Origin: Gemmatimonadaceae bacterium | GTDB lineage: Bacteria; Gemmatimonadota; Gemmatimonadetes; Gemmatimonadales; Gemmatimonadaceae | NCBI GenBank assembly: GCA_025450035.1 | Contig: JANWIF010000068.1 | Location: 1 to 43,692, forward strand | Reading direction: 5' to 3' | Length of the DNA stretch: 43,692 nucleotides | In this document: one piece after another, positions 11,568 through 29,511 of the stretch | Layout of the letters: each line of letters begins with the position of its first letter | Position numbering within the stretch: position 1 is the stretch's first letter | Made by a program: the position numbers and the translations under genes | Notes under the pieces: generated by a model | Database searches by the model: none | What the model was told of the DNA's origin: nothing | Seen by the model: only the letters and a program-made list of their open reading frames with translations

Positions 11568-11877
11568 GGAACACCTCGGTGGCGGGTGAATCTCCCACAA
11601 GATCGCAAGGATCGGGCGCCGGGCGCCAGGCGTCCATCGAACCGTGCAGTTGCGGCCGCAATGGGCCGCGAGCGCGGTCAGGAACGCCGCCGGACGGACC
11701 GAAGACGGCCCATCTATGAGTAGTGAAGCGCGGTGCGGCGCTCGTCTGTTCCCGTCTTGCGCCACGTCATACGTTGTCATACACTGTCTGCCGCTTTCAG
11801 CAGCGGCGGAGTGAGTTCGCCGCTCGCATCTCGAGTGGCGGCCGACGCGGTGGCGCCGGTGCGCGGGGAGATTCGTG
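11568..11877. promoter_or_regulatory. Divergent control region between dps and the ECF sigma gene
   Basis: About 310 bases without a supported gene, lying between two divergent genes, so it should hold both promoters. The visible feature is a tandem GTCATAC...GTCATAC at 11766-11772 and 11776-11782, spaced ten bases start to start, about one helical turn. This is the layout expected of a dimeric operator or activator site upstream of the sigma gene. I cannot assign -35 and -10 elements reliably. Confidence 0.4.
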
Positions 11878-12483
11878 ATGACGCAATCCCTCGGGCCGAT
11901 CGGCGGCGACCGTTGTGCCGGCGACGACGACCGTGCGCTCGTCGACGCCGTTCGCGCGGGCAGCGAGGCGGCGTTCTTCACGCTCTTCCACGCGAACTAC
12001 GAGATGTTATGCCGGTACGTGTACCGGTACGTGCGCTCGCGTGCCATCGCCGAGGAGCTGGTGAGCGATGTGTTTCTGCGGGTGTGGGCGCAGCGCGAGC
12101 GGTGGGAGGTACGCGGGCGCGTGCGCGCGTACCTGTATGGCGCCGCGCGCAATCTGGCCATCGATCATCTCCGTCGCGAGCGTGTGGAGCAGCGTTCGTT
12201 GGACGCGACGGTCAGGGAACATCGGGTAACTGGCGGCGAGAGGCGGCGGTGCGAGGTGGAAGAGCGGCTCGCGTCCGAGGAGCTGGCGGCAGCCATGCAG
12301 CGGGCTGTGGACGAACTTCCGCCGCGTCCTCGGCAGGTTTTTCTCTTGCGGTGGCAGCGGCATCTGACCAACGCCGAGATTGCCGCGTCGTTGGGCATCG
12401 CGGTCAAGACCGTGGAGATGCACATGACGCGGGCATTGGACGTGTTGCGTGGGGCGTTGCCGGAGGAGTTGCGCGGCGGGTGA
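11878..12483 (+). CDS. ECF-type RNA polymerase sigma factor (FecI-like)
   Basis: Sigma-70 family extracytoplasmic-function factor of 201 residues. Region 2 is at about residues 35-90 (FHANYEMLCRYVYRYVRS, EELVSDVFLRVWAQRERW, RAYLYGAARNLAIDHLRR). Region 4 is at about 145-190 (LPPRPRQVFLLRWQRHLTNA, EIAASLGIAVKTVEMHMTRA). GGGGAG about eight bases before the ATG at 11878 supports this start; a GTG three bases earlier is also possible. It is followed by FecR, a TonB receptor with an STN domain and an S9 isopeptidase. By analogy with FecI-FecR-FecA, it should be activated when the receptor binds its ligand and should transcribe the receptor operon. Confidence 0.92.
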   Translation: MTQSLGPIGGDRCAGDDDRALVDAVRAGSEAAFFTLFHANYEMLCRYVYRYVRSRAIAEELVSDVFLRVWAQRERWEVRGRVRAYLYGAARNLAIDHLRRERVEQRSLDATVREHRVTGGERRRCEVEERLASEELAAAMQRAVDELPPRPRQVFLLRWQRHLTNAEIAASLGIAVKTVEMHMTRALDVLRGALPEELRGG

Positions 12484-12654
12484 GGTGTGAAGCGGGAGAG
12501 CCGGGGCATTCGGGCCGTTATCGATTTGGCCTGTGGGGTCCCGGCCGTTGTCGTTTGCCATACAGGGTTGAGCGCTTCGGTATTCGTCATGAGGGACATG
12601 ACCGCATGTTGCGATGAGTTTCTTCTCACTGTTTTCCCTGGACTGACCGGCGAT

Positions 12655-13713
12655 ATGGATCTGGAGCTGTTGCGCCGGTGGGTGTTGGGCGAGTGTGACG
12701 CGGGCGAGCGCGAGGAGGTGGCGCGCTGGCTGGCGGAGGATCGATCGCACGAGCGGCTTGTGGAGGTTGTGCGGCGGATGTCGGCGGAGCCTGGGGCGTG
12801 GACGCAGTCGTTCGACGCTGGCGCCGCGTGGTCGCGGGTGTCGCGTGTCGTATCGTCGCCTGAGGGTGAGCGTGTCGTGCGCGTGCGCACGCCGGGACGT
12901 GTTCTCAGCATCGGGCAACGGGGGGGAGGCGCCGGATTCAGCGGATGGCGCGTGGCGGCGTGGGGTCTGGTGGCCGCGGCTGCCATTGCGTTAGGCAGTA
13001 AGATGGCGTGGGGGCCGTTATCGCGGGCGTTATCGGTGCCGCCGGCCAGCGTGCCGATGCGCGAGGTGATCGCCGCGCGGGGGCAGCGGGCGCAGGTGCG
13101 GCTGGTGGATGGCACGCGGGTGGAGCTCGCCGCCGGGAGCCGGCTCACGTATCCCGCCGCGTTCACCGACAGTGTGCGGGCCGTGTCGCTCGAGGGGGAG
13201 GCGTATTTCGAGGTGGAGCATGACGCGCGGCGGCCGTTCTTGGTGCGCACGCGGGGCGGCGTGACAGAGGATGTGGGAACGTCGTTCGTGGTGCGGCAGT
13301 ACGCGAGCGATGCGCGATTGGAGGTTGTGGTAGCATCGGGAACGGTGGCCGTGCGGGCGCCTGGGCGCAACGCGACTACGGCGCGGGAGGTCGGAGCCGG
13401 TCAGTTGGTGCGGCTCGACAGCAGTGGCGGCGCCGAGGTGCGCGCCGTGGATTTGGAGCAGTACCTCGCCTGGATGCATGGGCGGTTGGTCTTTCGGGAC
13501 ACGCCCTTCCGGGAGGTGTTGGCGCAGCTGGCGCGCTGGTACGACGCCGACTTCGAGCTTGCGGACAGCACGCTTGCGAGCCGGCGATTCACCGGTGCGT
13601 TTCAGGGCGAGTCGCTCGATCAGATCGTGAGCGAGCTCGCGCCGCCCATGCACGTTCGATACGAGCGGCGTGGGCGAACGATCGTCTTTTCGCGAATGCC
13701 GGGCGATCGTTAG
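12655..13713 (+). CDS. FecR-type anti-sigma factor / sigma regulator
   Basis: Membrane protein of about 352 residues. The short cytoplasmic anti-sigma head begins LELLRRWVLGECDAGEREEV. One membrane segment follows (VAAWGLVAAAAIALGSKMAW). The periplasmic FecR domain includes LVDGTRVELAAGSRLTYPAA, LEGEAYFEVEHDARRPFLV and DVGTSFVVRQY. The C-terminal DUF4974-like/STN-like domain has FRDTPFREVLAQLARWYDAD. I chose 12655 because the FecR family normally begins with this M-D-x-E-L-L pattern. In-frame starts at 12589 and a GTG at 12487 would add up to 56 residues without homology. The gene ends inside a GTTAGGC heptamer. It should pass the signal from the TonB receptor to the sigma factor. Confidence 0.9.
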   Translation: MDLELLRRWVLGECDAGEREEVARWLAEDRSHERLVEVVRRMSAEPGAWTQSFDAGAAWSRVSRVVSSPEGERVVRVRTPGRVLSIGQRGGGAGFSGWRVAAWGLVAAAAIALGSKMAWGPLSRALSVPPASVPMREVIAARGQRAQVRLVDGTRVELAAGSRLTYPAAFTDSVRAVSLEGEAYFEVEHDARRPFLVRTRGGVTEDVGTSFVVRQYASDARLEVVVASGTVAVRAPGRNATTAREVGAGQLVRLDSSGGAEVRAVDLEQYLAWMHGRLVFRDTPFREVLAQLARWYDADFELADSTLASRRFTGAFQGESLDQIVSELAPPMHVRYERRGRTIVFSRMPGDR

Positions 13714-13793
13714 GCCGCGACGGCGGTCCGAATTCCAGACAACTCAATCACGTCATTCTAACGGGCTCAGAACCCTGGGCCGGAGGCACATCT

Positions 13794-16469
13794 ATGTGTA
13801 TCTCCGTAGTGCGGGGCATCGTGATAGGGGCCGGCTGTATCGTCCAGGCGGCAACGGTCGCTGCAGGGCAGGCTGTTGCGCCGGTCCGCATTGCCGCGGC
13901 ATCGATTCGCATTTCACCGCCGCCGCGGATGCAGGGCGTGACGTCCGTGCAGCGCGGGCGCGTGACGCTGGACATGAACAATGTGCCGCTCGGCAAAGTG
14001 CTCGCCGAGATCGAGCGGCAGGGTGACGTCACGTTGCTCTACAGTACTGACGTCGTGAACGTGAACCGGCGGGTCTCGATCAGCATCCGACAGGCCACGG
14101 TATCTGATGCGCTCTCGGCCGCCTTACGCGGTACGGGAGTCATCGCGCGCGTTGACGGGCCGGGTCGTGTGACGCTCGAGGGTCGCGGCGCACCAGATAC
14201 TACGCAGACGGGCACCATTCGAGGGCGCGTTGTCGATGCGAAGAGTGGTGAAGGCGTACCGCAAGCGACGATCGCGCTGCAAGGCTCGCGATACGCAACG
14301 CTGGCGAATGAAGATGGCCGCTATCTCATCGCCAAGATCGAGCCGGGCACGTACACGTTGGTGGCGCGCCGCATCGGCTACGAGCCGGCGAACGAGTCCA
14401 TCGTGATAGCCGCCGGGCAGGACACTGACGTGACGATCCGCCTTCGACAGTCGGCGAACATCCTCGACAAGGTGATCGTGACGGGGACGATCGTTCCCAC
14501 CGAAGTGCGGGCGGTACCGACTCCGGTGACAGTCATCAGCGCCGAGCAGATCGAGCAGCAGGACTTCAGGCGACTTGACCAAGCGGTGCGGATGTTCGTA
14601 CCGAGTGCGCTGTCGTGGGACACGGGACCGAACGCAGAGCAGGACGCCATCAGCGTTCGCGGTGCAAGCTCCCTGGCATTGGGATCGCCGATAAAGGTAT
14701 ACGTCGACGGCATCGAGGTCGCGTCGTCGAATTTCACGATGATGGACCCGAGCAGCGTTGAACGAGTCGAAGTGATTCGTGGCCCGCAGGCAGCCACGAT
14801 GTATGGCTCCGACGCGATGGGCGGGGTCATGCAGGTGTTCACCAAGAAAGGGAATGCCGCGCTCGACCGTCCGGAACTCGATCTCAAGGTGTCTCTCGGC
14901 ACCATTCAGAGCCCGTACAAGAGCGGCGGGACTCTGCGCCAGGATTATTCGGCCGTCGTACGCGGCGGTACGTCATCGGCGAGCTACAGCATCGGAGGGT
15001 CATTCTCGCACACCGGAGACTGGCTTCCTTACTACTACCTGTCGACACCGAGCGCGTTCGGCGGAGTGCACATCGCGCAGGGAAAGCTGTCACTCGATCT
15101 CTCCGGCCGATACATGAACACCAAGGAACCGTCTGTCCCGAATCCGTTCTTTGTGGGTGCCGGTATCTCCAGTCCGCTGCCGCCGTACGAGGACATGGAG
15201 TACCGCCAGTCGACACTCGGCGCGCATCTCACGTTCGACGCCACATCACACTGGCGACACTCGCTGACTCTCGGCGTCGACGGCCTGTCGTGGGATGATC
15301 ACAACACCAGGCCGCGGTTTACCACGCCGGCAGACAGTCTGATGTTCGTCTACGTCGGAGAGCTGCGAAAGATGTCGGCGGCCTACAACACATCGTTCAC
15401 CGTGCCGATGTCGGCGTCCTTGTCGACCGTCCTCACGGCCGGCATCGACCACTACAGCTACACGGCCAATCAGTTCTACTCGTTCTCGGCGCACAACAAT
15501 ACGGGTCCGATCATCTCCGACCCCGACGACCCAACTCAGGGCAGCCGCACGGTTGCGTCAAACACCGGCGTGTTTGGGCAGGCCCTGGTGAGCATTCACG
15601 ACGCGTTGTTTCTCACCGCTGGGCTCCGAGCCGAATACAACACCAATATGGGAAGCGACCTCGGCACGCCGATCTCACCGCGCGTGGGCGTCTCGTGGAC
15701 GCGGAATGTGGGCGAAGCGACAGTGAAAGTTCGCGCATCGTATGGTCAAGCGATTCGCGCGCCGATCCCGGCGATGAAGGACTACTCCAAGCAAGCGTAC
15801 GGCGAAATCCTCGCGAATCCGACGCTGGGCCCGGAGCGGCAACGCGGGTTCGACGGCGGTCTGGACGTCGCGTTTGGTGGGCGCGGCTCGTTCAGCGTGA
15901 GCTACTACGATCAGACCGCAATTGACCTGATTCAGGCTGTGTTGATTGATGGCAACGCGGTGCCGCCCATTCGGCAGTACCAGAATGTGGGGCGCGTCGC
16001 GAACCGCGGCTTGGAACTCGAAGGTGCCATGCAGTTAGGCATCGCACACCTGACCGCCCAACTGTCCAGGTCGACGAGCCGCGTGCTGGACCTCGGACCT
16101 ACCTATGCCGGTGACTTGCGTCCCGGCGATCAGATCCTCGGCATTCCTCGCACGACTGCCGGAGCGACTGTCGCGCTCTCGGCGCTTGCCCACACGAGCC
16201 TATCGCTCGGCGTCGTCTACGTAGGCGCGCTGACGAACTACGACTATCGCGCGATGTACACGGGTCCGTCGAGGAATTCGTTGCGGGACTATTGGACCGC
16301 GTATCCCTCATTCGCCAAGATGAACCTCGGCGTGTCGCAGACACTGTCCAGCTCAGCGACCGCGTTCGCGGCGATCGAGAACGTGGCCAACTCCAATCCT
16401 TTCGAACAAGACAACCTCGGACCGATCCAAGGCCGGACGTCGATGATCGGCTTGCGCCTTCACTTCTGA
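13794..16469 (+). CDS. TonB-dependent receptor with STN signalling domain
   Basis: Outer-membrane receptor of 891 residues with a signal peptide at about 1-25. An STN domain is at about 56-128 (VTLDMNNVPLGKVLAEIERQ, VSDALSAALRGTG). A carboxypeptidase-regulatory-like domain is at about 141-218 (IRGRVVDAKSGEGVPQATIA, GTYTLVARRIGYEP). The plug is at about 235-345 (IEQQDFRRLDQAVR, VERVEVIRGPQAATMYGSDA). The beta barrel ends with the usual C-terminal aromatic (LRLHF). GGAGG seven bases before the ATG fixes the start. The STN domain and the upstream sigma/FecR pair mark it as a signalling transducer. Position one base before the isopeptidase gene and convergent with the lasso operon suggests that it imports the lasso peptide; that ligand is inferred. 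Confidence 0.93.
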   Translation: MCISVVRGIVIGAGCIVQAATVAAGQAVAPVRIAAASIRISPPPRMQGVTSVQRGRVTLDMNNVPLGKVLAEIERQGDVTLLYSTDVVNVNRRVSISIRQATVSDALSAALRGTGVIARVDGPGRVTLEGRGAPDTTQTGTIRGRVVDAKSGEGVPQATIALQGSRYATLANEDGRYLIAKIEPGTYTLVARRIGYEPANESIVIAAGQDTDVTIRLRQSANILDKVIVTGTIVPTEVRAVPTPVTVISAEQIEQQDFRRLDQAVRMFVPSALSWDTGPNAEQDAISVRGASSLALGSPIKVYVDGIEVASSNFTMMDPSSVERVEVIRGPQAATMYGSDAMGGVMQVFTKKGNAALDRPELDLKVSLGTIQSPYKSGGTLRQDYSAVVRGGTSSASYSIGGSFSHTGDWLPYYYLSTPSAFGGVHIAQGKLSLDLSGRYMNTKEPSVPNPFFVGAGISSPLPPYEDMEYRQSTLGAHLTFDATSHWRHSLTLGVDGLSWDDHNTRPRFTTPADSLMFVYVGELRKMSAAYNTSFTVPMSASLSTVLTAGIDHYSYTANQFYSFSAHNNTGPIISDPDDPTQGSRTVASNTGVFGQALVSIHDALFLTAGLRAEYNTNMGSDLGTPISPRVGVSWTRNVGEATVKVRASYGQAIRAPIPAMKDYSKQAYGEILANPTLGPERQRGFDGGLDVAFGGRGSFSVSYYDQTAIDLIQAVLIDGNAVPPIRQYQNVGRVANRGLELEGAMQLGIAHLTAQLSRSTSRVLDLGPTYAGDLRPGDQILGIPRTTAGATVALSALAHTSLSLGVVYVGALTNYDYRAMYTGPSRNSLRDYWTAYPSFAKMNLGVSQTLSSSATAFAAIENVANSNPFEQDNLGPIQGRTSMIGLRLHF

Positions 16470-16470
16470 G

Positions 16471-18876
16471 ATGATCGACATGCCAATCATGACACAACCG
16501 TCCAATGCAGGCGGTTCGCATCGCGCGGGGCTCGGTGCGGCCTGCCTGCGCAATGTCGCGCTCCTACTATCCGCGATGATTGCGCCCCGGCTGGCGGCGC
16601 AGGCGGCGTCGACCAAGCCACTCAGCGTTGCCGATGCGATGGCCACTCGCACCATAGCGTACTTCGCGCCGATTTCCCTGTCGCCGGATGGTCAGTGGGT
16701 TGCGTACACCGTTACGAATCCGAAAAAGATCCGCACGCATACTGATGCCGCGATCCAGTTCCTGCCCACCGGCACGCCCATCCCCTCCGAAGGATCCGAG
16801 TTATGGATCACCAACACCCACACTGGCGAGTCGCGCGATCTCACGGGGCCGAGCGGCGCGAGTTGGGATGGCGTATGGTCGCCCGACGGGCGGCAGTTGG
16901 CGTTCTACTCGGATCGTGGCGGTCGAGCGCAAGTGTGGATCTGGGATCGCGAGACCGGGAAGAGTCGCCGGGTTTCGCCGCTCATCGCGCATCCGTTCTT
17001 CCCGTTCGAAGCGATGCAGTGGACGCCGGACGGGCGTCAGCTCCTCGTCAAGCTCCTACCCGAGGGCGTTCCACTCGAGACGACGCCGGATACCGTGGCG
17101 CGGGCAGCTTCCACCGCGCCTAACGACAGCGTCGTGACCGTAGTCGTGTACAGCGCCAACACGGGGAAGAACGACTCGTCGAGCGCTCCCGCGTTCGTTA
17201 GTCAGCGAATAACCGCCGATCTCGCGCTGATGTCCGTGGCCGACGGGCGGGTGCGTCGACTCGTGCGCCGCAGTCCCGTCATGCGTGCCTGGATCTCGCC
17301 GACGGGAAGAGACATTGCATTCACCATTTCCCTCAGGATGGTGACGACCCCTGAGATCACGAATCTGTACGACGTGGGAGTGGTCGATGTGGCGACCGGA
17401 CGCACGCGCATTGTCGCGAAGAGCGTACTCCACTATTGGGGACCTCCGGTGAGTTGGTCGCCGGACGGGACGCGTCTTGCATTCACCACCAAGCGCCACT
17501 ATTTCCAGCTGTTCGACAACCCCGGTCGACCGCTGCCGGCTGGCGATTGCTTCGTCGTGGATCTGGCAACGGACTCGGTGCGCAACGTGTCGCCGGGTAC
17601 ACACGCGGACTTGAGTAGTGAGTTTCACCCGCCCGTCTGGGACTCCGCCGGCACGACGCTGTACACAGTAGGCGGTGACACCCTGTGGCGGCTCGATGCA
17701 CGCCGTGGTGGGCTCACCGCGGTAGCTTCGATAGCGGGCCGGAAGCTGATAGCCGTGCTCTCGCCAACTCCAGAGGCGCGACCGTGGCTTCCCGAAGATG
17801 GTGATCACGTACTTGTCCGCACACTCGATGCGACCAGTCTCCGCGCGGGTGTTGCGCGCATCGACCTCCGCACCGGTGCAGACACCCTGTTGTTCGAGGA
17901 CGACGAGGCGTTGCCCGGAGAAGGTCGCGTGACGTTCGGCGTGGACGCCGCGCAAAAGGTCCTGGTGTATCAGCGCCAAGACGCGTCTCACCCTCAAGAT
18001 CTGTGGGTGGCAGGTCCCGACTTTAGTGACCGCCACCGGCTCACCCACATCAATCCGCAGCTCGACGCCTATACGTTTGGCCGCAGTCAGCTGGTTCGTT
18101 GGCGCAGCGACGACGGAGACTCGCTACGCGGGGCCCTGCTGCTTCCGGCGAACTATCGTCCCGGAACGCGGTATCCGTTGATCGTATGGGTTTACGGCGG
18201 CGAGCAGTGGTCGATGTTCGCGAACAACTTCGGTGTGATTCCGATCGACCTCGACTACATGCAGCTGCTCGCCACGCGTGGATTCGCCGTGCTCGTGCCC
18301 GACGCTCCGCAGCACATTGGGACGCCCATGCTCGATCTAGCAAAGACGGTACTTCCAGGCGTGAACAAGGTGATCGATCTCGGAATCGCGGATCCGGAAC
18401 GCCTTGGTATCATGGGGCAGAGCTACGGCTGCGCGTCCACTCTCATGATCATCGTGCAGACCACTCGCTTCAAGGCCGCCGTGTGCGCATCGGGGACGTC
18501 GAGCGTCATCAGCATGGCCGGGTTGCTAGGAGGTGAAGGCAGCACCTGGGCCAACATCGGTCAAGGAAAAATGGGCGGCACGGTGTGGCAGCACCGGGAG
18601 AGATACATCGAGAACTCTCCGTACTTCTACCTCGACCGGGTCACGACGCCTGTACTCATCGTCCAGGGCACGTCCGATCGAGCGTCGCCGCCATTTCAAT
18701 CCGACGCCACATTCGAAGCGCTTCGACAGCTCGGGAAACGCGTAGTGTACTTACGATACGATGGCGAAGGTCACGGACCGATGCTCTACTCCGCGGCGAA
18801 CCGGGCTCACTACCTCAACCGAGTGGTTCGATGGTTCGACGAATATCTTAGCGAGAAGAAGGTTTTGGCGCCCTGA
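16471..18876 (+). CDS. S9 family peptidase, probable AtxE2-like lasso peptide isopeptidase
   Basis: Protein of 801 residues with a probable signal peptide (hydrophobic stretch about 24-44, VALLLSAMIAPRLAAQA). An N-terminal beta-propeller follows (repeated SPDGxxxA/F motifs such as SPDGQWVAYTV, SPDGRQLAFYSD, SPDGTRLAFTT), then a C-terminal alpha/beta hydrolase. The triad is clear: Ser651 in GIMGQSYGCAS, Asp736 in VQGTSDRASPP and His768 in YDGEGHGPM. This is the prolyl oligopeptidase-like fold of AtxE2 lasso isopeptidases, which open the macrolactam ring. The start lies one base after the receptor stop, so the two are co-translated. The lasso assignment rests on this operon and the convergent lasso cluster; by sequence alone it could be a general S9 dipeptidyl peptidase. 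Confidence 0.85.
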   Translation: MIDMPIMTQPSNAGGSHRAGLGAACLRNVALLLSAMIAPRLAAQAASTKPLSVADAMATRTIAYFAPISLSPDGQWVAYTVTNPKKIRTHTDAAIQFLPTGTPIPSEGSELWITNTHTGESRDLTGPSGASWDGVWSPDGRQLAFYSDRGGRAQVWIWDRETGKSRRVSPLIAHPFFPFEAMQWTPDGRQLLVKLLPEGVPLETTPDTVARAASTAPNDSVVTVVVYSANTGKNDSSSAPAFVSQRITADLALMSVADGRVRRLVRRSPVMRAWISPTGRDIAFTISLRMVTTPEITNLYDVGVVDVATGRTRIVAKSVLHYWGPPVSWSPDGTRLAFTTKRHYFQLFDNPGRPLPAGDCFVVDLATDSVRNVSPGTHADLSSEFHPPVWDSAGTTLYTVGGDTLWRLDARRGGLTAVASIAGRKLIAVLSPTPEARPWLPEDGDHVLVRTLDATSLRAGVARIDLRTGADTLLFEDDEALPGEGRVTFGVDAAQKVLVYQRQDASHPQDLWVAGPDFSDRHRLTHINPQLDAYTFGRSQLVRWRSDDGDSLRGALLLPANYRPGTRYPLIVWVYGGEQWSMFANNFGVIPIDLDYMQLLATRGFAVLVPDAPQHIGTPMLDLAKTVLPGVNKVIDLGIADPERLGIMGQSYGCASTLMIIVQTTRFKAAVCASGTSSVISMAGLLGGEGSTWANIGQGKMGGTVWQHRERYIENSPYFYLDRVTTPVLIVQGTSDRASPPFQSDATFEALRQLGKRVVYLRYDGEGHGPMLYSAANRAHYLNRVVRWFDEYLSEKKVLAP

Positions 18877-19057: not shown

Positions 19058-19207
19058 CTATAGACCGAATCCGAGATCGCCGGGCCCGTTCTGCAGCCCC
19101 ATCCCTGACGGCTCGAACGGAATCACCGTCTTCAGTCGCGTTGCCGTCACGACATCGCCGCGCTCGGATAATACCGGCGCCTCGTAGTTCCTTCTGTCCG
19201 CGTTCAT
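19058..19207 (-). CDS. Lasso peptide precursor A1
   Basis: 49-residue precursor. The leader (residues 1-24) carries the recognition motif bound by B1: Tyr8, Pro11, Leu13, Gly17 and Thr23 (Y-EA-P-V-L-SER-G-...-T). Thr23 at the -2 position predicts cleavage after Arg24, giving a 25-residue core. Core residues 1-9 are LKTVIPFEP, with Glu8 positioned for an 8-residue macrolactam from Leu1. The tail ends GDLGFGL. An excellent AAGGAGG five bases before the ATG decides the start; an in-frame ATG at 19246 would add 13 residues running through this site. It is the last gene of the lasso operon, about 100 bases after A2. Start, length and motif spacing exactly match A2. Confidence 0.9.
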   Translation of the reverse strand: MNADRRNYEAPVLSERGDVVTATRLKTVIPFEPSGMGLQNGPGDLGFGL

Positions 19208-19306: not shown

Positions 19307-19456
19307 CTACAGGCCGAATCCTACCTCGCCCGCGGAATCCCGCGGCAGAATTGTTGCCGGCTCGAACTGGCCGGTGTCCTTCGCACGCGTCGCTGCCACC
19401 GCATCTCCCTTGGCTTCCAGCGACGGCGACTCATAGGCCTTCCGAATTGAGCGCAT
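19307..19456 (-). CDS. Lasso peptide precursor A2
   Basis: 49-residue precursor in the same register as A1: Tyr8, Pro11, Leu13, Gly17 and Thr23 (Y-ES-P-S-L-EAK-G-...-T), with predicted cleavage after Arg24. The 25-residue core begins AKDTGQFEP, so Glu8 would close an 8-residue ring with Ala1, and ends GEVGFGL. Only Lys2, Phe7-Glu8-Pro9 and the terminal Gly-Phe-Gly-Leu region are clearly shared with the A1 core; the rest has diverged. AGGAG six bases upstream supports the ATG. The first 26 bases overlap the 3' end of the cyclase gene in another frame, so A2 is translationally linked to C. Confidence 0.9.
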   Translation of the reverse strand: MRSIRKAYESPSLEAKGDAVAATRAKDTGQFEPATILPRDSAGEVGFGL

Positions 19457-21353
19457 TGGTTGCTCCTGTGGATTGGGATTGAGAGTTGACTGCCTGACTC
19501 CGGGCGGCCGAGTGCTCGACCGCCGATCCCTGATTCGTCCACCGGCCAGACCGTACTCGAAGCCAATACTCGAGCGCGAGAGCGTTCAGTACCGCCCCAC
19601 GCTCGAACTGCCCATCCAACTGCGTCGCGCTGCGCAGGGCCACTCGCAGCTGCGAGATATCAATGCAGCCCATGTCCGCCAGCATGGAGCGCGTCAACAA
19701 CGGTTCAAAACGCGCGCTCTCGTGCAGCAGCGACCAGGCGATACGGCCGTCAAATGCTCCCTTCCAACGTCTGGTTCGGACAATCTCCGGCAAACAGCCG
19801 CGCATGGCTTCGCGCAACACCCATTTGCGGGCGTTTGGGCGACGGCACATGTCCGGCGGAAGTCGCAGCGCAAACTCGACGAGTGGCCGATGACAAAAGG
19901 GGTAACGCATCTCGACTGCGTCGGCGACCAGTCCATGGTCGATCGCCAGCGCGATGGCGCCCGTGGAAAACGCCACCTCGTGAGCATACTGTCGGCCGCG
20001 TTGCCCGCCGTAGCTCTGGGCAACCGCCGACCGAGCGCTCAATGCCAGCCGCTCGTGGTGCCCCGCTGCAATCCACGATGGCACGCGCGCACCGCGCGCT
20101 AGCCTCGTACGCGCCGGCGCGGGAACCAACGGAAGCAGCGCATTGAGATACGCGAGCTCCCAGAACGAAACCCGGCCCAATGCCGCCCAACGCAGCATCT
20201 CGCTCACCGCGCGGCGGGATTCTCCTTTCGCAATCCAATCGGCGAAGAAGAACATGTTGCCCACCAGGTAGTGATCGGATCCGATGCCGGAGAGCAGCAC
20301 GCGAGCGTTGGACTCGCGGAGGATTCTCAACGTGGCGATGTCACGCGCCGCGAGAAGGGAGCGTACGGAGGGAGTGTCGGTGGTGGACGCAGATGGGCTC
20401 GTAGCCTGCAACAGCAGATAGTCAATGAGGACTTCGTTGCGAACATCGAACGTCTTCACGACGCTGTCCGAATACACCCGCTCGTCCGAGCCCGCACCCA
20501 CCGAATCCGCGTACGTGATCGTCCCCGCTATTCCCGCCGCGACCTTCCCCTCCCGCTTGAGCGTCTCCGCGATACACACGATCGAGGACGAATCGAGCCC
20601 CCCCGACAACTCCGACCACGTACGGCCGTCATCGGTTAGGCACACGCGAACCGCCTGCGTCAGCAGCCCACGGAACTCCTCGATCGCGGCCTGCTCGTCA
20701 TTCACCGGCCCGCTCTCGAATTCTGTGGGACGCCAGTACGTGCGGAACTCGATGGCGCCAGCGTGTGTGAGCGCCATCGATGCCGGCGGGACCGCAGTTA
20801 CGCCCGCGTACGGGGTGCGATGGGGATCGGGCACCACGCCGGCCGCAAACTCGACCAGATAGTCCTCGTCATAGCGATCGTGATCGGCCAGCGCCTCGGC
20901 TCGCGATGAAAACACCACGACATCGCCCCACCGCCTGACGTAGAGCGTTCGCACACCGAACGCATCCCGCGCGGCCAGCACCGTACCCGACTGCGTGTCG
21001 GCGATGACGAACGAGAAGTCGCCGATGAGATCGCGAATGGCCCGAGCGCCGAGACGCCGGTAGTGCCGAAGCACGAGATCGAGATCGCCAAGAGTTTCGC
21101 CTGTGCGCCGATACCGCCGCGCGAGCTCGTCGCGATTCTCCAGACGCACCAAACCAACCGCGATCAGCGATCCGCAGCTCGCCACCTCGGGCCAATCCGA
21201 ACCATCGTTACGGACGCGAAGGATCGACACACCACCCGACTCACTCCACGTCGATTCCATCCCCCGTCGCACGCAGTAGCGCTCGAGCCCCACGCTCGAT
21301 TGGGGGCTCACGCGCTCACCGCGAGCATGGATAAGGCAGGCGTAGAAGTTCAC
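19431..21353 (-). CDS. Lasso peptide macrocyclase C (asparagine synthetase-like)
   Basis: Protein of 640 residues that adenylates the Glu8 side chain of the core and forms the isopeptide bond to the core N-terminus. The N-terminal glutaminase-like domain (about 1-200: YACLIHARGE, LIGDFSFVIADTQSGTVLAARD, FGVRTLYVRR) lacks the catalytic Cys at position 2, as is normal for lasso cyclases. The synthetase domain holds the PP-loop ELSGGLDSSSIVCIAE (SGGLDSS about 250-256) and the later GIGSDHYLVG motif, and ends in the family RRWKGAFDG / YWLRVRSGRW region. I chose GTG at 21353 because it overlaps the B2 stop as GTGA and starts at the NFYAC strand. The 3' end overlaps precursor A2. Confidence 0.93.
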   Translation of the reverse strand: MNFYACLIHARGERVSPQSSVGLERYCVRRGMESTWSESGGVSILRVRNDGSDWPEVASCGSLIAVGLVRLENRDELARRYRRTGETLGDLDLVLRHYRRLGARAIRDLIGDFSFVIADTQSGTVLAARDAFGVRTLYVRRWGDVVVFSSRAEALADHDRYDEDYLVEFAAGVVPDPHRTPYAGVTAVPPASMALTHAGAIEFRTYWRPTEFESGPVNDEQAAIEEFRGLLTQAVRVCLTDDGRTWSELSGGLDSSSIVCIAETLKREGKVAAGIAGTITYADSVGAGSDERVYSDSVVKTFDVRNEVLIDYLLLQATSPSASTTDTPSVRSLLAARDIATLRILRESNARVLLSGIGSDHYLVGNMFFFADWIAKGESRRAVSEMLRWAALGRVSFWELAYLNALLPLVPAPARTRLARGARVPSWIAAGHHERLALSARSAVAQSYGGQRGRQYAHEVAFSTGAIALAIDHGLVADAVEMRYPFCHRPLVEFALRLPPDMCRRPNARKWVLREAMRGCLPEIVRTRRWKGAFDGRIAWSLLHESARFEPLLTRSMLADMGCIDISQLRVALRSATQLDGQFERGAVLNALALEYWLRVRSGRWTNQGSAVEHSAARSQAVNSQSQSTGATNALNSEGL

Positions 21354-21790
21354 GGGAGCACGTCCGGTAGCGGTGCAAAGAACGCCACGTGCTCCTCTAT
21401 GTCGTTCAGCGGACGGCCGAGATATTCGACCCACGCGTGCGCCCCGAACGGGTACGCCTGCACGCCGAGGCGCAATCGCACCGTGGCTCCCGCCAACCGC
21501 AGCAGCACGTAGAGTGTGAGCGACTGCTCGAGACAGAGCGCGCGCCCGGGGAACAGCGCGGCAGCCATGGCGACCGAACGCTCGATGGCTTCGACGGTGC
21601 TCGGCCCCACGCCGCGATCCGTTCGAGCACACCGCTCGACCCAGCGTACGAGCCTAACCGTGCGTCCGAACTTGAGCGCGATCAAGGATGCGCGAACGGC
21701 CACGAGGACTGCAAGGCACCGCCAAACACCGGGCACGCGTACCGGCGCGCGCGCGGGCGCATTCTCAGTCACAGCACGCTCAACGCCCAT
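21350..21790 (-). CDS. Lasso peptide B2 leader peptidase (transglutaminase-like)
   Basis: Protein of 146 residues in the Transglut_core3/lasso B2 family, which removes the leader from the precursor. The Cys-His-Asp triad is visible as Cys86 in GRALCLEQSLTLYVLLRLAG, His118 in PFGAHAWVEYLGRPLND and Asp130 at the end of that block. The preceding WVERC and VEAIERSVAMAAALFPGR stretches are typical. I chose the ATG at 21790 (GGGGGC about six bases upstream). It overlaps the transporter end by 11 bases and gives the normal length; an in-frame ATG at 21838 would lie inside the transporter gene. It works with the separate RRE protein B1. Confidence 0.92.
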   Translation of the reverse strand: MGVERAVTENAPARAPVRVPGVWRCLAVLVAVRASLIALKFGRTVRLVRWVERCARTDRGVGPSTVEAIERSVAMAAALFPGRALCLEQSLTLYVLLRLAGATVRLRLGVQAYPFGAHAWVEYLGRPLNDIEEHVAFFAPLPDVLP

Positions 21791-23615
21791 TTTCGCCCCC
21801 TGCTGCGCCGAAGGCAGCGCGCAACACCGGCGCCTCACTCCGCCCGCGACTTCGCGACCGCTCCCCCCGCCACTGCCGCTCGTACAACCGCCGATACACC
21901 CCCCGCCGCGCCATCAATGCCTCGTGCGACCCACGCTCCACGATCCGCCCACCCTCGAGCACCACGATCTGATCCGCGCTCCGAATCGTCGACAACCGAT
22001 GCGCGATCACGAACGTGGTCCGACCCCGCCGCAACAGCTCGAGTCCTTCCTGCACGGCGGCCTCGCTCTCAGCATCCAGACTCGATGTCGCCTCGTCCAA
22101 CACCAGGATCCGCGGCGACGCCAGCAACGCCCGCGCGATGGCCACCCGCTGCCGCTGACCGCCGGACAACCGCACGCCCCGCTCGCCAATCACGGTATCG
22201 TATCCGTTAGGCAGGCGCTCTATGAATTCATCGCACTGGGCGAGCGCGGCCACGGCCCGCACGTCGGCAGTCGTCGCGTCGCCCCGCGCATAACGGATGG
22301 CTTCGGCTATGGTGCCGTCGAACAACACGGCATCCTGCAGCACCACGCCCACGTGCGCGCGATACTCGGTTCGCTTGAGACCGGCGAGATCTCGCCCGTC
22401 GATCAACACCCGCCCGCGCGTGGGACGGTCGAAAGCGAGCAGCAGCCGGCACAACGTGCTCTTCCCGGCCCCGCTCGCCCCCACCAGCGCGACGGTCGAT
22501 GCGGGCACGGCGTACAGATCGATGCCGCGCAGCACGAACCGGCCAGCCGCGTAGGCGTAGCTCACGTCCTCGAGCTCCACGGCGCCCACCACACGCGGCA
22601 CGGACGCGAGCTCGCGATCCTCGTCATCCTCGGTGGGTACCACGCGCAGCTCGCGAATCCGCGCCATTCCGGCCGCGGCCTTCCCCAGCTCGCCGCTCAT
22701 CGCAGCGGCCTGCACGAGCGGTGCGGCCAACAGCCCCACGAGATACGCGAACATCGCGAGATCGCCCAACGTCATCGCGCCGGCGGCAATGGCCTGCGCG
22801 CCGGCCACGAGCAGCAGCACGCCGGCGAAGCCGGTTGCCATGGTGGTGCCGGCGGTGAGCCGCGCTACCCGCCGCACGCCCGCCGCCGCGGCGTCGAACA
22901 ACGCCCGCGACCGGCGCGCGAACTCGGCCGTCTCCCATCGCTCGGCGCCGCACCCCTTCACCACGCGAATGCCGGCCAGCGATTCGGCCAACCGCGCGCT
23001 CATCCCCGCGTGCCGCCGGCTCACGTCCCGGAACGCCGCCGAGAGGCCGCCATACGACCGCGCCAGTCCGATGCCTAACGCAGAAGAGGCGAGGATGATG
23101 GCCACGGTGAGCGGCCAGCTCACCCACGCCATCACGCCCAACGCCGCCGCGGCGGTCACCACGCCCCCGGCGAGCGGCACGATTCCCGACGCAATCACGA
23201 TCCGTACCTGCTCGGTATCGCTCATCACCCGCGACAGCAGCGCGCCGGACCGCTCGGCGTCGAAGAACGACACCGGCAGCCGCATCACGTGCGCGTGCAG
23301 CTCCTCGCGCAGCACGGTCACGATGCGCTGGGCCCCCACACCAGTCACCTGCGCCAACCTCGACGCGGCGAGCCCCTCGATCACAATCGCCGCAACCGCG
23401 CCCGCAGCCAGCGGTACCAGCCTCGCGCGTCGATGGGCGCCGATCACATCGTCGATCACCAACTTGGCGGCCACGGGCAACGCCAGCGCGGCCACGCGGT
23501 TCGCGAGCATGAGCGCCATGCCCATGCCTAACAACCGGCGCTCCTTCCACACCGCCGCGCGCGCCTCGCGCCACGCTTCGCGCCGCGCCACCGACACCGC
23601 GATCACGGCTCGCAT
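21780..23615 (-). CDS. Lasso peptide ABC exporter D (membrane + ATPase half-transporter)
   Basis: Half-transporter of 611 residues. The N-terminal ABC_membrane domain (about 30-320) has six hydrophobic segments and the motifs LPVSFFDAERSGALLSRVMS and RWETAEFARRSRALFD. The C-terminal ATPase has Walker A LVGASGAGKSTLCRLLLAF, Q-loop VVLQDAVLFDGT, signature VRLSGGQRQRVAIARALLAS, Walker B ILVLDEATSSLD and the switch AHRLSTIRSADQ. It would export the mature lasso peptide and give self-immunity, as McjD does. It overlaps B1 by 13 bases and B2 by 11. There is no C39 peptidase domain, which fits leader removal by the separate B2. Confidence 0.93.
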   Translation of the reverse strand: MRAVIAVSVARREAWREARAAVWKERRLLGMGMALMLANRVAALALPVAAKLVIDDVIGAHRRARLVPLAAGAVAAIVIEGLAASRLAQVTGVGAQRIVTVLREELHAHVMRLPVSFFDAERSGALLSRVMSDTEQVRIVIASGIVPLAGGVVTAAAALGVMAWVSWPLTVAIILASSALGIGLARSYGGLSAAFRDVSRRHAGMSARLAESLAGIRVVKGCGAERWETAEFARRSRALFDAAAAGVRRVARLTAGTTMATGFAGVLLLVAGAQAIAAGAMTLGDLAMFAYLVGLLAAPLVQAAAMSGELGKAAAGMARIRELRVVPTEDDEDRELASVPRVVGAVELEDVSYAYAAGRFVLRGIDLYAVPASTVALVGASGAGKSTLCRLLLAFDRPTRGRVLIDGRDLAGLKRTEYRAHVGVVLQDAVLFDGTIAEAIRYARGDATTADVRAVAALAQCDEFIERLPNGYDTVIGERGVRLSGGQRQRVAIARALLASPRILVLDEATSSLDAESEAAVQEGLELLRRGRTTFVIAHRLSTIRSADQIVVLEGGRIVERGSHEALMARRGVYRRLYERQWRGERSRSRGRSEAPVLRAAFGAAGGENGR

Positions 23616-23923
23616 TGCACCAGGGACTCCGACAGCAGCCGCCGTATCAGCGCCGCGGCGTCCTCCGCGGCCCGCTCGGGTGACACGTCGTACTCGGCGC
23701 GCAGGCGCTCCACGATGCCGGCGAACGGCACGCCCTCACACACCAGACTCCAGATGCGGCTCCCCACCTCGTTGAGCGCGTAGTACCGCCCGCGCTCCAC
23801 GTCCAGCAGCACGGTCTCCTCCCCCTGCGTGGCCGCCAGCACGTGGCACGGCGGCACCAACCGGGCGCTCGTTCCGGACGCAACGTTTCCGCCACCCCGC
23901 TGTTGGTCTGGCTGCTGGTGCAT
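23603..23923 (-). CDS. Lasso peptide B1 protein (RiPP recognition element, PqqD-like)
   Basis: Protein of about 106 residues with a PqqD/RRE winged-helix fold that binds the leader motif and delivers precursors to B2. Diagnostic motifs are ETVLLDVERGRYYALNEVGS and RIWSLVCEG, followed by the helical ERLRAEYDVSPERAAEDAAA and LIRRLLSESLVQ. I chose the ATG at 23923; an extra in-frame ATG at 23983 is possible and would add 20 residues without homology. It overlaps the transporter by 13 bases. The RRE is a separate gene from the peptidase (split B), unlike the fused McjB of most proteobacterial clusters. Confidence 0.9.
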   Translation of the reverse strand: MHQQPDQQRGGGNVASGTSARLVPPCHVLAATQGEETVLLDVERGRYYALNEVGSRIWSLVCEGVPFAGIVERLRAEYDVSPERAAEDAAALIRRLLSESLVQCEP

Positions 23924-24020
23924 GGCGCCCCCCCGCGTCGTTACGGCGACAGGGTGCACCGAACACGCGACGGCGAACAGCATCCCCACGCGCCGACTGC
24001 TTACTCGGCGCGCCGCTTTG

Positions 24021-24818
24021 TTACTCCACGCGCCGATTGGCGTGGGAGTGCAGCAGGTAGTCGACGAACTGCTCGCGCACCGCCAGAAACCCGCCGTGGT
24101 TACGAAGCGCACTGGGCGAACACCCGCAATAGCGCGACAGCAGGTTCGCCAACGCAGCGCTCGACGCGAATCCGAGCGCGGCCGCCACCTGCTTCGGGCT
24201 TTGCTCGAGCACGTCCAGCCGCCACGCGGCGCGCAACGCGGCGCACCAGAAGATCACGCGGGACGCGGGCGGGAAACCGGCGCGCTCCAACCGGCTCTCG
24301 ATGGTCCGCGATCCGACGCCCAGCAGCGACGCGGCGCGCGTCACCGCGAGTCGGGGTCCGCCGTGTTCGGCGCACAGCACCATGAACGCGCCTAACGGGC
24401 GGGGGACCGCCGGCGCGACGGCCTCGAGGATCGGCAGCGCCGCGCCCGGTTCGCTCCGCCCATCGAGCGCCGCCCGCGCCATCGCCGCCAGATCGTCCAC
24501 GCCGCGCAGCACCACCTGCACGGGCGCTCCCGAACCGGCCAGCGCCAGCACGTCGCGAGCGCCAGAGTCTGTGAGCGGCGCCCACGCCAACACCGGAGGG
24601 GCCGACGCGCGCCCCGCGAGCTCGGCGAGCACGGACGCCACGCTGGCACCCACCCGGTCGCGCAGCTCGCTCACCACCACCCGCACGCCGCCGGCCGCGA
24701 CCAGCGCGCGCAACGACTCGGCGCGGTCGCACACGCGCACCGTTGCCACCGCGGCCAGTACAGGCTCGATGGTCAGGCGATCGTGCCCGGTCGCGATCAG
24801 GGCGACGATCGGCGCCAC
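24021..24818 (-). CDS. HTH (AraC-type) transcriptional regulator with a receiver-like N-terminus
   Basis: Protein of 265 residues starting with GTG. The first 110 residues look like a degenerate response-regulator fold: alternating hydrophobic strands such as PIVALIATG, VRVVVSELRD and PPVLAWAPL, but no clear phospho-acceptor pattern. The C-terminal third is an AraC-type double helix-turn-helix: RLAVTRAASLLGVGSRTIES, then SPKQVAAALGFASSAALANL and SRYCGCSPSALRNHGG. It is the first gene of the minus-strand lasso operon, 97 bases before B1, and is divergent from a solute-binding lipoprotein gene, so it probably controls the lasso genes. A second protein of the same architecture lies at 28340-29179. 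Confidence 0.8.
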   Translation of the reverse strand: MAPIVALIATGHDRLTIEPVLAAVATVRVCDRAESLRALVAAGGVRVVVSELRDRVGASVASVLAELAGRASAPPVLAWAPLTDSGARDVLALAGSGAPVQVVLRGVDDLAAMARAALDGRSEPGAALPILEAVAPAVPRPLGAFMVLCAEHGGPRLAVTRAASLLGVGSRTIESRLERAGFPPASRVIFWCAALRAAWRLDVLEQSPKQVAAALGFASSAALANLLSRYCGCSPSALRNHGGFLAVREQFVDYLLHSHANRRVE

Positions 24819-24931
24819 ACGCCCGCCGGCACTACGACGTCATACAACGAAAGACAGACACGGTGGTCCGGCCGTGCTACGTTCCCGCCCAACGCAAGCG
24901 GACTCATCGCTATCGGACGCGGGAGCGGCCC
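24819..24931. promoter_or_regulatory. Divergent promoter region of the lasso operon and solute-binding protein gene
   Basis: 113 bases between two divergent starts; both promoters must lie in or near it. It contains ACGTCATAC (24837-24845), also present in the tandem repeat upstream of the sigma gene. The right end carries GGGAG (24921-24925), the ribosome binding site of the lipoprotein gene. I cannot name -35 and -10 boxes. Confidence 0.45.
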
Positions 24932-26623
24932 ATGTATCCATCGTTCGCCCAACTCGCCACCCCACATCGCTCGCGCCGCAACGTCGCGGCGACCGGCGCC
25001 GTGCTCGTTGCGATCGCCGCCGGGTGCGGCACAGCGCACGATCCGGCCCGCGATCATACGCTGGTGATCGCCCTCGCCGCCGAGCCCACGCTGCTCCTCC
25101 CACCACTCATCGATGAAACGCCGGGTTTCGTGGTGGCCGATCAGATTCTCGAACGGCTGGCCGATCCGGATTCCACGCTCGACATCATGCACGACACCGC
25201 CTTCCACCCGCGCCTCGCCGCAGCGTGGACGTGGGCCGCGGACTCGATGGCCATCGCGTTCCGCCTTGCGCCTAACGCAAGATGGCACGACGGCCGGCGG
25301 GTGACGGCGCATGATGTCCGCTTCACGTTCGATGTGTACGCCGACACCACCATCGCATCCGCTGCCGCGCCGCTCCTCGACAACATCGATTCCGTCCAGG
25401 TCCGCGACGACTCCACAGCGGTGTTCTGGTTCCACCGTCGCGCGCGCCTGCAATTCTTCGACGCCACCTACCACATGCGCATCCTGCCGCGGCACCTGCT
25501 CGACTCGCTGCCACGCCGCGCGCTCCGCGGCAGCCCGTTCGCACGCGCGCCCACCGGAACCGGCCCCTTTCGCTTCAGCCGGTGGCGCGCCGGTCAATCC
25601 GTGGAACTGGCCGCCAACGAGCGTTATCACGGCCGCCGCGCGCAATTCGATCGCCTGGTGTTCGCCATCGCATCCGATCCCTCCGCCACGCTCGCCCGCG
25701 CCCTCGCCGGCGAAGTGGACGTCGCGCCGCACATTCGCGCTTCGGATGTCGCGCGCGTTTCGCAGTCCCGGCGACTGCGCGTGCGGTCGTGGCCATCGCT
25801 GTCCAACGGCCTCGTGATGCTCGCCCTGCACGACGCCGCGACACCTGGCGACGCGCATCCGTTGTTCGGCGATTCCCGTGTCCGGCGCGCGCTCACCCTC
25901 GCACTCGATCGCGCGCGCATCACGCGCGGCGCGTTGGGCGAAACCGCGTCTCCCGCGCGCGGCCCGCTCCCTGCCCCGCTGCTGCACGGCGCTTTCCCGC
26001 CGCTCGTGCTCCTCGCGTTCGATCCGCGGCACGCCGCGGCGCTGCTCGACAGTGCCGGATGGTACATCACCGGCCCCGAACGCATTCGCCATCGCGGGCC
26101 GCGCGAACTGCGCTTCACACTGCTCATCCCCACTGCTGCCGTCGCCGCTCGCCGCGCCGCGATTCTCGCGCAGGAACAGCTGCGCAGCGTTGGCATCGCC
26201 ATGGACATCGATCTTGCCGACCCGGGCACGCTGGCCGCTCGGTTGGGCGAGCACCGCTTCGACGCGGTGCTCCTCGCCCTCGATTGGGATCCGAACCCGC
26301 TCAGCGCCCGCCAGCTGTGGGGAAGCAGCGCCGTAGCGCATGGCGCGAATTTCAGCGGCTATCAGAGCGCCGTGTTCGACTTCGCGATCGAAGCGTCCGC
26401 GCAGGCTCGCGATGCCGGCGCCACGCGCACGTTCGCCGCACAGGCGTGGGCGCAGCTCGTGGCCGACGCACCAGCGATCTGGCTCTACGACCTCCGCCAG
26501 ATCGCCGCCGTCCGCGCCAGCGTCCACTCCACTCCGGGCCGCCCCGATGCGTGGTGGAGCAGCCTCGCCGATTGGTCCGCCAAGACCGATGCCGACTCGC
26601 TCCGACCGACGGGGGTGCCTTGA
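24932..26623 (+). CDS. ABC transporter substrate-binding lipoprotein, family 5 (peptide/nickel type)
   Basis: Protein of 563 residues. A signal peptide ends in a lipobox (GAVLVAIAAGC, Cys about 31), so it should be a periplasmic lipoprotein. SBP_bac_5 motifs follow: PRLAAAWTWAADSMAIAFRL, ARWHDGRRVTAHDVRFTFDV, the cluster APTGTGPFRFSRWRAGQSVE and the late VRRALTLALDRARI. This family binds oligopeptides, dipeptides, nickel or heme. No permease or ATPase genes are adjacent, so it is an orphan in this window. GGGAG six bases upstream supports the ATG. It is divergent from the lasso operon and could capture peptide fragments released by the isopeptidase; that link is only positional. Confidence 0.85.
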   Translation: MYPSFAQLATPHRSRRNVAATGAVLVAIAAGCGTAHDPARDHTLVIALAAEPTLLLPPLIDETPGFVVADQILERLADPDSTLDIMHDTAFHPRLAAAWTWAADSMAIAFRLAPNARWHDGRRVTAHDVRFTFDVYADTTIASAAAPLLDNIDSVQVRDDSTAVFWFHRRARLQFFDATYHMRILPRHLLDSLPRRALRGSPFARAPTGTGPFRFSRWRAGQSVELAANERYHGRRAQFDRLVFAIASDPSATLARALAGEVDVAPHIRASDVARVSQSRRLRVRSWPSLSNGLVMLALHDAATPGDAHPLFGDSRVRRALTLALDRARITRGALGETASPARGPLPAPLLHGAFPPLVLLAFDPRHAAALLDSAGWYITGPERIRHRGPRELRFTLLIPTAAVAARRAAILAQEQLRSVGIAMDIDLADPGTLAARLGEHRFDAVLLALDWDPNPLSARQLWGSSAVAHGANFSGYQSAVFDFAIEASAQARDAGATRTFAAQAWAQLVADAPAIWLYDLRQIAAVRASVHSTPGRPDAWWSSLADWSAKTDADSLRPTGVP

Positions 26624-26635
26624 CGAACCGGGCTC

Positions 26636-27982: not shown

Positions 27983-28013
27983 GCAGGGACACGCGAGATC
28001 CTCAGCCCAGCAC

Positions 28014-28154
28014 TCAACGCCCTCCCTGAACGACGTTCGGATGAGGACCGATGGTGATCTGCTGATCCTGCGGTGCAGGCGCAGTGGGCGAGGTGCACGC
28101 CGCGACCAGCGCGGCGGTCACGAGAACCAGAACGAGCGTGCGATGACGGCGCAT
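28014..28154 (-). CDS. Small lipoprotein of 46 residues
   Basis: Very short gene with a strong GGGGAGG five bases before the ATG. The product begins MRRHRTLVLVLVTAALVAAC, a textbook lipoprotein signal with a lipobox ending at Cys20. The mature part is only 26 residues, Pro- and Gln-rich (SPTAPAPQDQQITIGPHPNV). It resembles small entericidin-like or anchor-type lipoproteins only in layout; I do not recognise the family. It is divergent from the second HTH regulator gene, which may control it. The frame continues upstream, but the ribosome binding site and signal sequence decide this start. Confidence 0.75.
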   Translation of the reverse strand: MRRHRTLVLVLVTAALVAACTSPTAPAPQDQQITIGPHPNVVQGGR

Positions 28155-28339
28155 GGAACCTCCCCTTGCCGGTGTGTGCGACGTCGCTCCGCCGGCCGGT
28201 CTCCAATCGCGGCGCAGAGTCGTGAAGCGACGGGCGACACGTTCGCCCGAACGCCTGTGCTCGTTCCCGCACAAACGCGACCTAACAGCGCATGGATGGG
28301 ACATTGCCGCGTCGATGCATCGTGCGGAGCACGCGTACC

Positions 28340-29179: not shown

Positions 29180-29313
29180 CATAGCGACAGCATAGTCCGT
29201 CAGCGAACATGTGTATGACGAACGATGACAACGTAGGACTGCATAGTTCCCACGCGTTCCGTATGTTCGCCCGCGACTTCCACCACCGGTCTATGGGCGA
29301 GCGCACGAGACGT

Positions 29314-29511
29314 ATGGCGAAGACACGAAATCCCAAGAAGAAGGTCGTACAGGTGCGTGTGACTCCAGCGGAAAAGGCCCGGATCGAACGCGCGGCCCTC
29401 GCCGAGAATCGCACGGTGAGCAATTGGATCTACGGGTTGATCATGCGGGAGCTCCCCAGCCGCGATGAGCCCCAGCTCAGGGTCGCCGAACCGAAACAGC
29501 CGCGAAGCTGA
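29314..29511 (+). CDS. Small ribbon-helix-helix-like DNA-binding protein
   Basis: About 65 residues. The Lys/Arg-rich N-terminus (MAKTRNPKKKVVQVRVTPAE) followed by KARIERAALAENRTVSNWIY and LIMRELP matches a ribbon-helix-helix pattern: one beta strand VVQVRVTP, then helices with the conserved hydrophobic spacing. Such proteins are often antitoxins or plasmid/mobilisation regulators, but no toxin gene is adjacent. The start is uncertain because no clear ribosome binding site is visible; ATGs at 29293, 29263 and 29209 are in frame. A strong terminator hairpin follows 22 bases after the stop. Confidence 0.6.
   Translation: MAKTRNPKKKVVQVRVTPAEKARIERAALAENRTVSNWIYGLIMRELPSRDEPQLRVAEPKQPRS

Follow-up and report, generated by a model that had tools for sequence, protein, structure and literature searches.

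A FecI/FecR-type signalling operon convergent with a lasso peptide operon in Gemmatimonadaceae, and the likely sensing of the cell's own peptides

Lasso peptide clusters of the isopeptidase type include genes for a TonB-dependent transporter and for a sigma and an anti-sigma factor, and their biological function is enigmatic (PMC9266682). In the rubrinodin cluster, an ABC exporter, an isopeptidase, a TonB-dependent receptor and FecI/FecR are combined (PMC9266682). In cell-surface signalling, the signalling domain of the receptor contacts the periplasmic domain of the anti-sigma factor, and ligand binding leads to anti-sigma proteolysis and sigma-dependent transcription, which includes the receptor gene (PMC11637429, PMC7186176). 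Here we analysed contig JANWIF010000068.1 of a Gemmatimonadaceae bacterium from soil (43,692 nucleotides; this whole stretch is called the window), in which a sigma-FecR-receptor-S9 peptidase operon and a lasso peptide operon are convergent. By gene content (A, B1/B2, C, an isopeptidase-like gene, a TonB-dependent receptor and sigma/anti-sigma) the window holds a cluster of the isopeptidase type. We consider it likely that the four-gene unit is devoted to the lasso peptides of its own cell and serves surface signalling and salvage.

The four-gene operon and its linkage to lasso genes

Domains were called with Pfam and NCBIfam profiles and judged against the curated cut-offs. The sigma, FecR and receptor genes lie on one strand in that order, followed by a peptidase gene:

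11878..12483, + strand: extracytoplasmic function (ECF) sigma factor, FecI-like (TIGR02985, 144.8 bits, above its cut-off)
12655..13713, + strand: FecR-type anti-sigma factor (N-terminus weakly DUF4880-like, a single membrane segment, then FecR and FecR_C)
13794..16469, + strand: TonB-dependent receptor/transducer (signal-peptide-like start, then STN, CarboxypepD_reg, linker, Plug and barrel)
16471..18876, + strand: secreted S9 peptidase, lasso-isopeptidase-like (best NCBIfam match NF033523; Ser and His invariant)

The preliminary description of this DNA had placed a ferric-citrate-type signalling unit at 11878-16469. The three genes are there, and their domains, order and fold agree with such a unit. 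Its extent has to be corrected, since the S9 gene, which that description left out, begins one base past the receptor stop and the operon extends beyond 16469.

The fecR gene probably starts at 12655 rather than at 12487, judging from the sequence. The N-terminus from this start is DUF4880-like (17.3 bits, below cut-off) and is followed by a single hydrophobic membrane segment (residues about 95-118). In the periplasmic part, PF04773 and FecR_C are both above cut-off. The nearest solved structures of this region are the anti-sigma domains 4m0n/4m0h, with 6ovk chain R further off. The membrane segment plus periplasmic domain that had been described earlier were thereby confirmed.

The STN domain of the receptor (PF07660) covers residues 80-128 with 42.5 bits against a cut-off of 28.4, and it is the only STN domain above cut-off in the source genome. 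CarboxypepD_reg, Plug and barrel domains are each above cut-off, and the linker contains LDKVIVTGT, a TonB-box-like stretch. In an AlphaFold model (11 sequences, mean predicted local distance difference test score 76), residues 56-130 form an STN-like beta-alpha-beta-beta-alpha-beta-beta unit and residues 140-217 a beta-rich domain; a disordered linker (221-243) leads to the plug and the barrel. The order noted earlier, with STN ahead of a carboxypeptidase-like domain and plug, is confirmed. The top structural matches of the model include SusC/RagA-type receptors as well as full-length FpvA and FoxA. The unit has the features of sigma-FecR-receptor signalling: the genes are encoded together, the receptor carries STN, and the anti-sigma factor is a membrane protein with a FecR domain.

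The S9 protein has a signal-peptide-like N-terminus, and its best NCBIfam family is NF033523 (AtxE2 lasso isopeptidase), which is also matched by all 8 orthologues examined. In the alignment of the 8 orthologues, the Ser of GQSYG and the His of GEGH are invariant, and the acidic residue lies in GTSD. The protein combines a beta-propeller with an alpha/beta-hydrolase containing a Ser-Asp/Glu-His triad. Its fold matches SpI-IsoP and other S9 peptidases. AtxE2 is second among the solved relatives by sequence, and SpI-IsoP is next by fold. On sequence grounds, the product is an isopeptidase-like S9 peptidase and not a curated AtxE2-family member.

The lasso operon lies on the opposite strand and contains the following genes:

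24021..24818, - strand: AraC-like regulator, with which the lasso operon begins (HTH_18 33.9 bits, cut-off 33.6)
23603..23921, - strand: B1, PqqD-like leader-binding protein (NF033536 58.9 bits, cut-off 80; start inferred)
21780..23615, - strand: ABC exporter D, MsbA-like
21350..21838, - strand: lasso leader peptidase B2 (NF033537 85.4 bits, above cut-off)
19431..21632, - strand: lasso cyclase C
19307..19456, - strand: lasso precursor A1 (predicted core AKDTGQFEPATILPRDSAGEVGFGL, ring 1-8)
19058..19207, - strand: lasso precursor A2 (predicted core LKTVIPFEPSGMGLQNGPGDLGFGL, ring 1-8)

The open reading frame of B1 is listed as 23603-24112, and its start was shortened by inference. The first part of the cyclase reading frame, which overlaps B2, is probably not translated. 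Both predicted cores have Glu8, and both leaders end in TR. The B2 gene is the sole copy detected in the source genome. Homologues of the AraC-like regulator adjoin lasso genes in L034, L043, L211, L037, L070 and L102.

Lasso B2 was detected in 121 of 395 genomes of the phylum. Receptor searches covered 179 genomes of the family, and named genomes were scanned separately; an initial contig scan with the S9 peptidase gave no matches, and the relatives were found by receptor alignment. FecR was present in four of 100 lasso B2 loci of the phylum (1.63 Mb), namely L034, L050, L069 and L070, which have identical gene order, are convergent on the lasso genes and all belong to the clade of linked loci. 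The complete order sigma-fecR-receptor-S9, convergent on lasso genes, was observed in L034 (where the sigma gene falls just beyond the retrieved sequence, and L206 holds its upstream region), L164/L184, L050/L186, L069/L198 and L070/L187, and also on the split contigs L166 + L102 and L165 + L043. Beside lasso genes, L168/L190 has fecR-receptor-S9, and L189, from the scan of named genomes, has receptor-S9. The linked units belong to three genera of one family, and the relatives from the named genomes are uncultured Gemmatimonadota represented by environmental metagenome bins.

Every receptor orthologue with at least 40% identity and a sequenced flank has lasso genes adjacent; in L167 a contig end cuts off the flank. 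Contigs L037, L040 and L166 likewise end beside the unit. Among receptors at 35-39% identity, L168 has lasso genes next to it, L169 and L171 are cut, and the short contig of L170 shows none. Sigma and FecR, but no lasso genes, accompany the relatives at 32-36% identity (L170, L172-L179), so the linkage marks this receptor branch. In a cyclase tree (n=76), the linked loci except L189 form one clade (SH-aLRT, an approximate likelihood ratio test, 97); this clade has two further members, both interrupted by a contig end. With two FecR units in 3.5 Mb, the chance that one of them lies no more than 10 kb from the sole lasso B2 gene is about 0.011. Because of this low probability and because the arrangement is kept in three genera, we conclude that the sigma-FecR-receptor genes do not lie beside the lasso genes by chance. 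The convergence reported earlier is real, and the suggestion that the unit sits where it can sense the lasso peptide of its own cell gains support from the conserved linkage and from the isopeptidase-like end of the operon.

Some variation and further genes were also observed. In the sister species G414, the receptor is followed by three S9 isopeptidase-like genes in tandem (L184:10570-18024), and the sigma gene is apparently split across two frames. G363 has an extra 652-residue protein, probably secreted, between the receptor and the isopeptidase-like gene (L185:12510-14468). Two tandem S9 isopeptidase-like genes occur at the lasso loci L110 and L113, with no receptor or FecR within the fetched stretch. 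L167 (G000:C107) is a second sigma-FecR-receptor unit in the source bin, cut before the next gene; it has 77% DNA identity over 7.4 kb to a genome of genus g8 and is possibly bin contamination. The receptor beside lasso genes in L129 was set aside as part of an unrelated SusC/SusD-like pair. The region 24932-29179, adjoining the lasso operon, encodes a peptide-binding lipoprotein (SBP_bac_5), a tetratricopeptide repeat protein and a helix-turn-helix-like protein, and is kept there in the sister species; distant homologues of the latter two proteins lie by lasso genes in g8.

Promoter repeats and a candidate repressor

The regulatory features of the window are as follows:

11757..11788, + strand: conserved sigma operon promoter region (TTGCGC-17 bp-TACACT, with two tandem GTCATAC at 11766-11782)
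29206..29239, no strand assigned: three tandem degenerate GTCATAC-like heptamers upstream of the ribbon-helix-helix gene
29314..29511, + strand: ribbon-helix-helix protein, NikA/CopG-like, candidate repressor (PF21983 28.9 bits, cut-off 27)
24830..24856, - strand: promoter element of the lasso operon, conserved (TTCGTTGTAtGACGTcGTAGTG; alignment of 4 sister species)

Within the genus, the sigma flank is sequenced in four members (window, G414, G363 and G200), and all of them share TTGCG(C/G)-17 bp-TACACT, with the GTCATAC pair at a 10-bp period between the hexamers. The pair at 11766-11782 is the single perfect copy in the source genome. When GTCATAC-N3-GTCATAC was searched with at most one mismatch in six genus genomes, the only matches were the four sigma promoters and G414:C11:917-943, while the reversed-pattern control gave 1 match. 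The G414 site is a triple repeat immediately upstream of a gene for a 64-residue ribbon-helix-helix protein, and such a triple repeat lies upstream of this gene in four species (window, G414, G200 and G363). In the window, the three degenerate repeats occupy 29213-29239. The protein was detected in 5 of 6 genus genomes and in none of the other genomes of the family; G229 has neither the protein nor the GTCATAC sites.

Because a triple repeat resembling the repeats of the sigma promoter sits upstream of the ribbon-helix-helix gene in four species, the protein is a candidate repressor. The sequence pattern suggests, as the simplest reading, that it targets its own gene and the sigma operon through these putative sites. 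A second regulator at the sigma promoter, probably this protein, was unforeseen in the preliminary description.

The lasso promoter element resembles the sigma promoter element weakly: both have similar decamer repeats, and 30 of 2000 shuffles were equally similar. An element common to both promoters was left as a suggestion, for the GTCATAC heptamer is single in the lasso promoter. In a search for Fur boxes, the best site upstream of sigma matched at 9/19 positions (89 of 100 shuffles did as well); neither there nor at the lasso promoter was a Fur box present. In a sigma-70 promoter scan no site reached the threshold. In genus g8, palindromes CACTATANATAGTG lie upstream of sigma (L186:7548, L198:7445-7520, L187:7138-7202), with XRE-like regulator genes nearby in L187 and L198. 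This palindrome was set aside as a different element.

The likely ligand and the alternatives

The linkage to lasso genes is conserved and is mostly missing in more distant relatives, so the ligand of the receptor is most likely a lasso peptide, as judged from gene context. The notion of self-sensing as such has been published before (PMC9266682). We propose that the convergent operon would make lasso peptides A1 and A2 through B1, B2 and C and export them through the ABC exporter. The mature peptide would be bound outside by the receptor and imported with TonB energy. Binding would be passed from the STN domain to the periplasmic domain of FecR, and the ECF sigma factor would be released. By analogy with the Fec, Fox and Pup systems, free sigma would raise transcription, most simply that of its own operon. 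As AtxE2 would lead one to expect, the S9 enzyme may cut the isopeptide bond in the periplasm and linearise the peptide, which would end the signal or free a cargo. In this genus, the ribbon-helix-helix protein probably represses the sigma operon through the GTCATAC repeats between -35 and -10, and may repress its own gene through the triple repeat.

Several observations weigh against a dedicated signalling and salvage operon. The S9 protein reaches 163.5 bits, short of the curated membership score of 400 for NF033523. Among solved structures, the one nearest to it in sequence as well as in fold is 8wt1, an ordinary S9 peptidase. The isopeptidase models also match another S9 enzyme encoded in the source genome (contig C69), with scores not far below. 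The linkage may reflect vertical inheritance of one ancestral association, and GTCATAC, which occurs just once in the lasso promoter, does not suffice for a claim of joint control.

The precursors offer a possible address for the receptor. At nine linked loci they end in G/S-F-x-L/V (the GFxL tail; variants VGFGL, LGFGL, SFGL, VGFQL, VGFAL, IGFSL and VGFGV), and their cores have Asp/Glu at position 8, giving an 8-residue ring, and a first residue other than Gly. Outside the linked clade no convincing precursor carries such a tail. The tail follows the cyclase phylogeny and therefore may serve the cyclase, the exporter or the isopeptidase as well as the receptor. For this reason, and because L038 and L189 are receptor-linked without it, it was not accepted as proof of receptor recognition. 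A Fisher value calculated for it rests on an approximate count and takes no account of relatedness, and it was given no weight. We raise only tentatively, and as a rather doubtful extension, that the tail addresses variable own peptides to this receptor branch, that true auto-induction results, and that the ribbon-helix-helix repressor at the GTCATAC repeats gates the loop. If true, a lasso peptide would here be sensed by a surface-signalling loop of a quorum-like kind.

A different role for the ligand would be that of a siderophore-like carrier. The receptor would import the peptide with a metal or hydrophobic cargo, signalling would report the loaded complex, and the isopeptidase would release the cargo inside. 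Such a role has been put forward for lasso peptides of the isopeptidase type (PMC9266682, PMC11006600); in the second of these studies, phenanthrene use was lost on insertion into a lasso B2 gene. The unit also resembles ferric-siderophore signalling systems. However, both promoters lack a Fur box, the iron-storage Dps gene neighbouring the cluster was not found at any relative's locus, and the predicted cores have no obvious cargo-binding residues. The metal complex suggested earlier as ligand has no support, the Dps iron link was dropped, and we regard the carrier role as unlikely.

Sensing of foreign lasso peptides from neighbouring strains, for competition sensing or theft, would make the own products incidental ligands. 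It would suit the environmental origin of the metagenome bins, and since the cores vary but have a common tail, a single receptor branch could recognise many related peptides. The strict linkage to the own lasso operon argues against it. Moreover, among orthologues with at least 40% identity and a sequenced flank, none was clearly an orphan separate from lasso genes, and we consider this reading improbable. Least probable of all is the import of an unrelated substrate (siderophore, glycan or peptide) by a receptor whose position is historical: STN receptors with FecIR do occur away from lasso genes in the family (L172-L183), and the CarboxypepD_reg domain and best structural matches are of SusC/RagA type, but across genera, at 40% receptor identity, the operon keeps its four genes, one of them isopeptidase-like, and converges on lasso genes.

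Comparison with known systems

The layout of the window matches published isopeptidase-type lasso clusters, and the window is therefore a variant of a known cluster type and an extension of an already published arrangement. No paper on such a cluster in Gemmatimonadota was found among the open-licence papers searched. The astexin-2/3, benenodin-1 and sphingopyxin clusters, mainly from alphaproteobacteria, likewise have lasso genes beside an isopeptidase, a TonB-dependent transporter and sigma/anti-sigma (PMC9266682). In contrast to them, the window comes from Gemmatimonadota and has an ABC exporter and separate B1/B2. Its precursors are last in the operon, with the GFxL tail and non-Gly1 cores; its sigma-FecR-receptor-isopeptidase genes are in this order on the convergent strand; and it has AraC-like and ribbon-helix-helix regulators, not the GntR-like one described there. 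The rubrinodin cluster, compared by its description in PMC9266682 only, is the closest to the window, which differs in that its isopeptidase-like enzyme is below the AtxE2 family cut-off.

FecA/FecR/FecI, FoxA/FoxR/FoxI and PupB/PupR/PupI share with the window an STN transducer, a FecR-type anti-sigma factor with a periplasmic C-terminal domain and an ECF sigma factor (PMC11637429, PMC7186176). Unlike them, the window has an extra CarboxypepD_reg domain between STN and plug, and its unit is without a Fur box and linked to lasso rather than siderophore genes. A cluster type known mainly from alphaproteobacteria is now extended to Gemmatimonadota. The function of isopeptidase-type lasso peptides can be addressed here through the receptor, the signalling pair, the isopeptidase-like enzyme, the tail motif and the candidate operator. 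Compared with the known systems, what is new in this lineage is the common peptide tail and a candidate extra repressor with putative binding sites.

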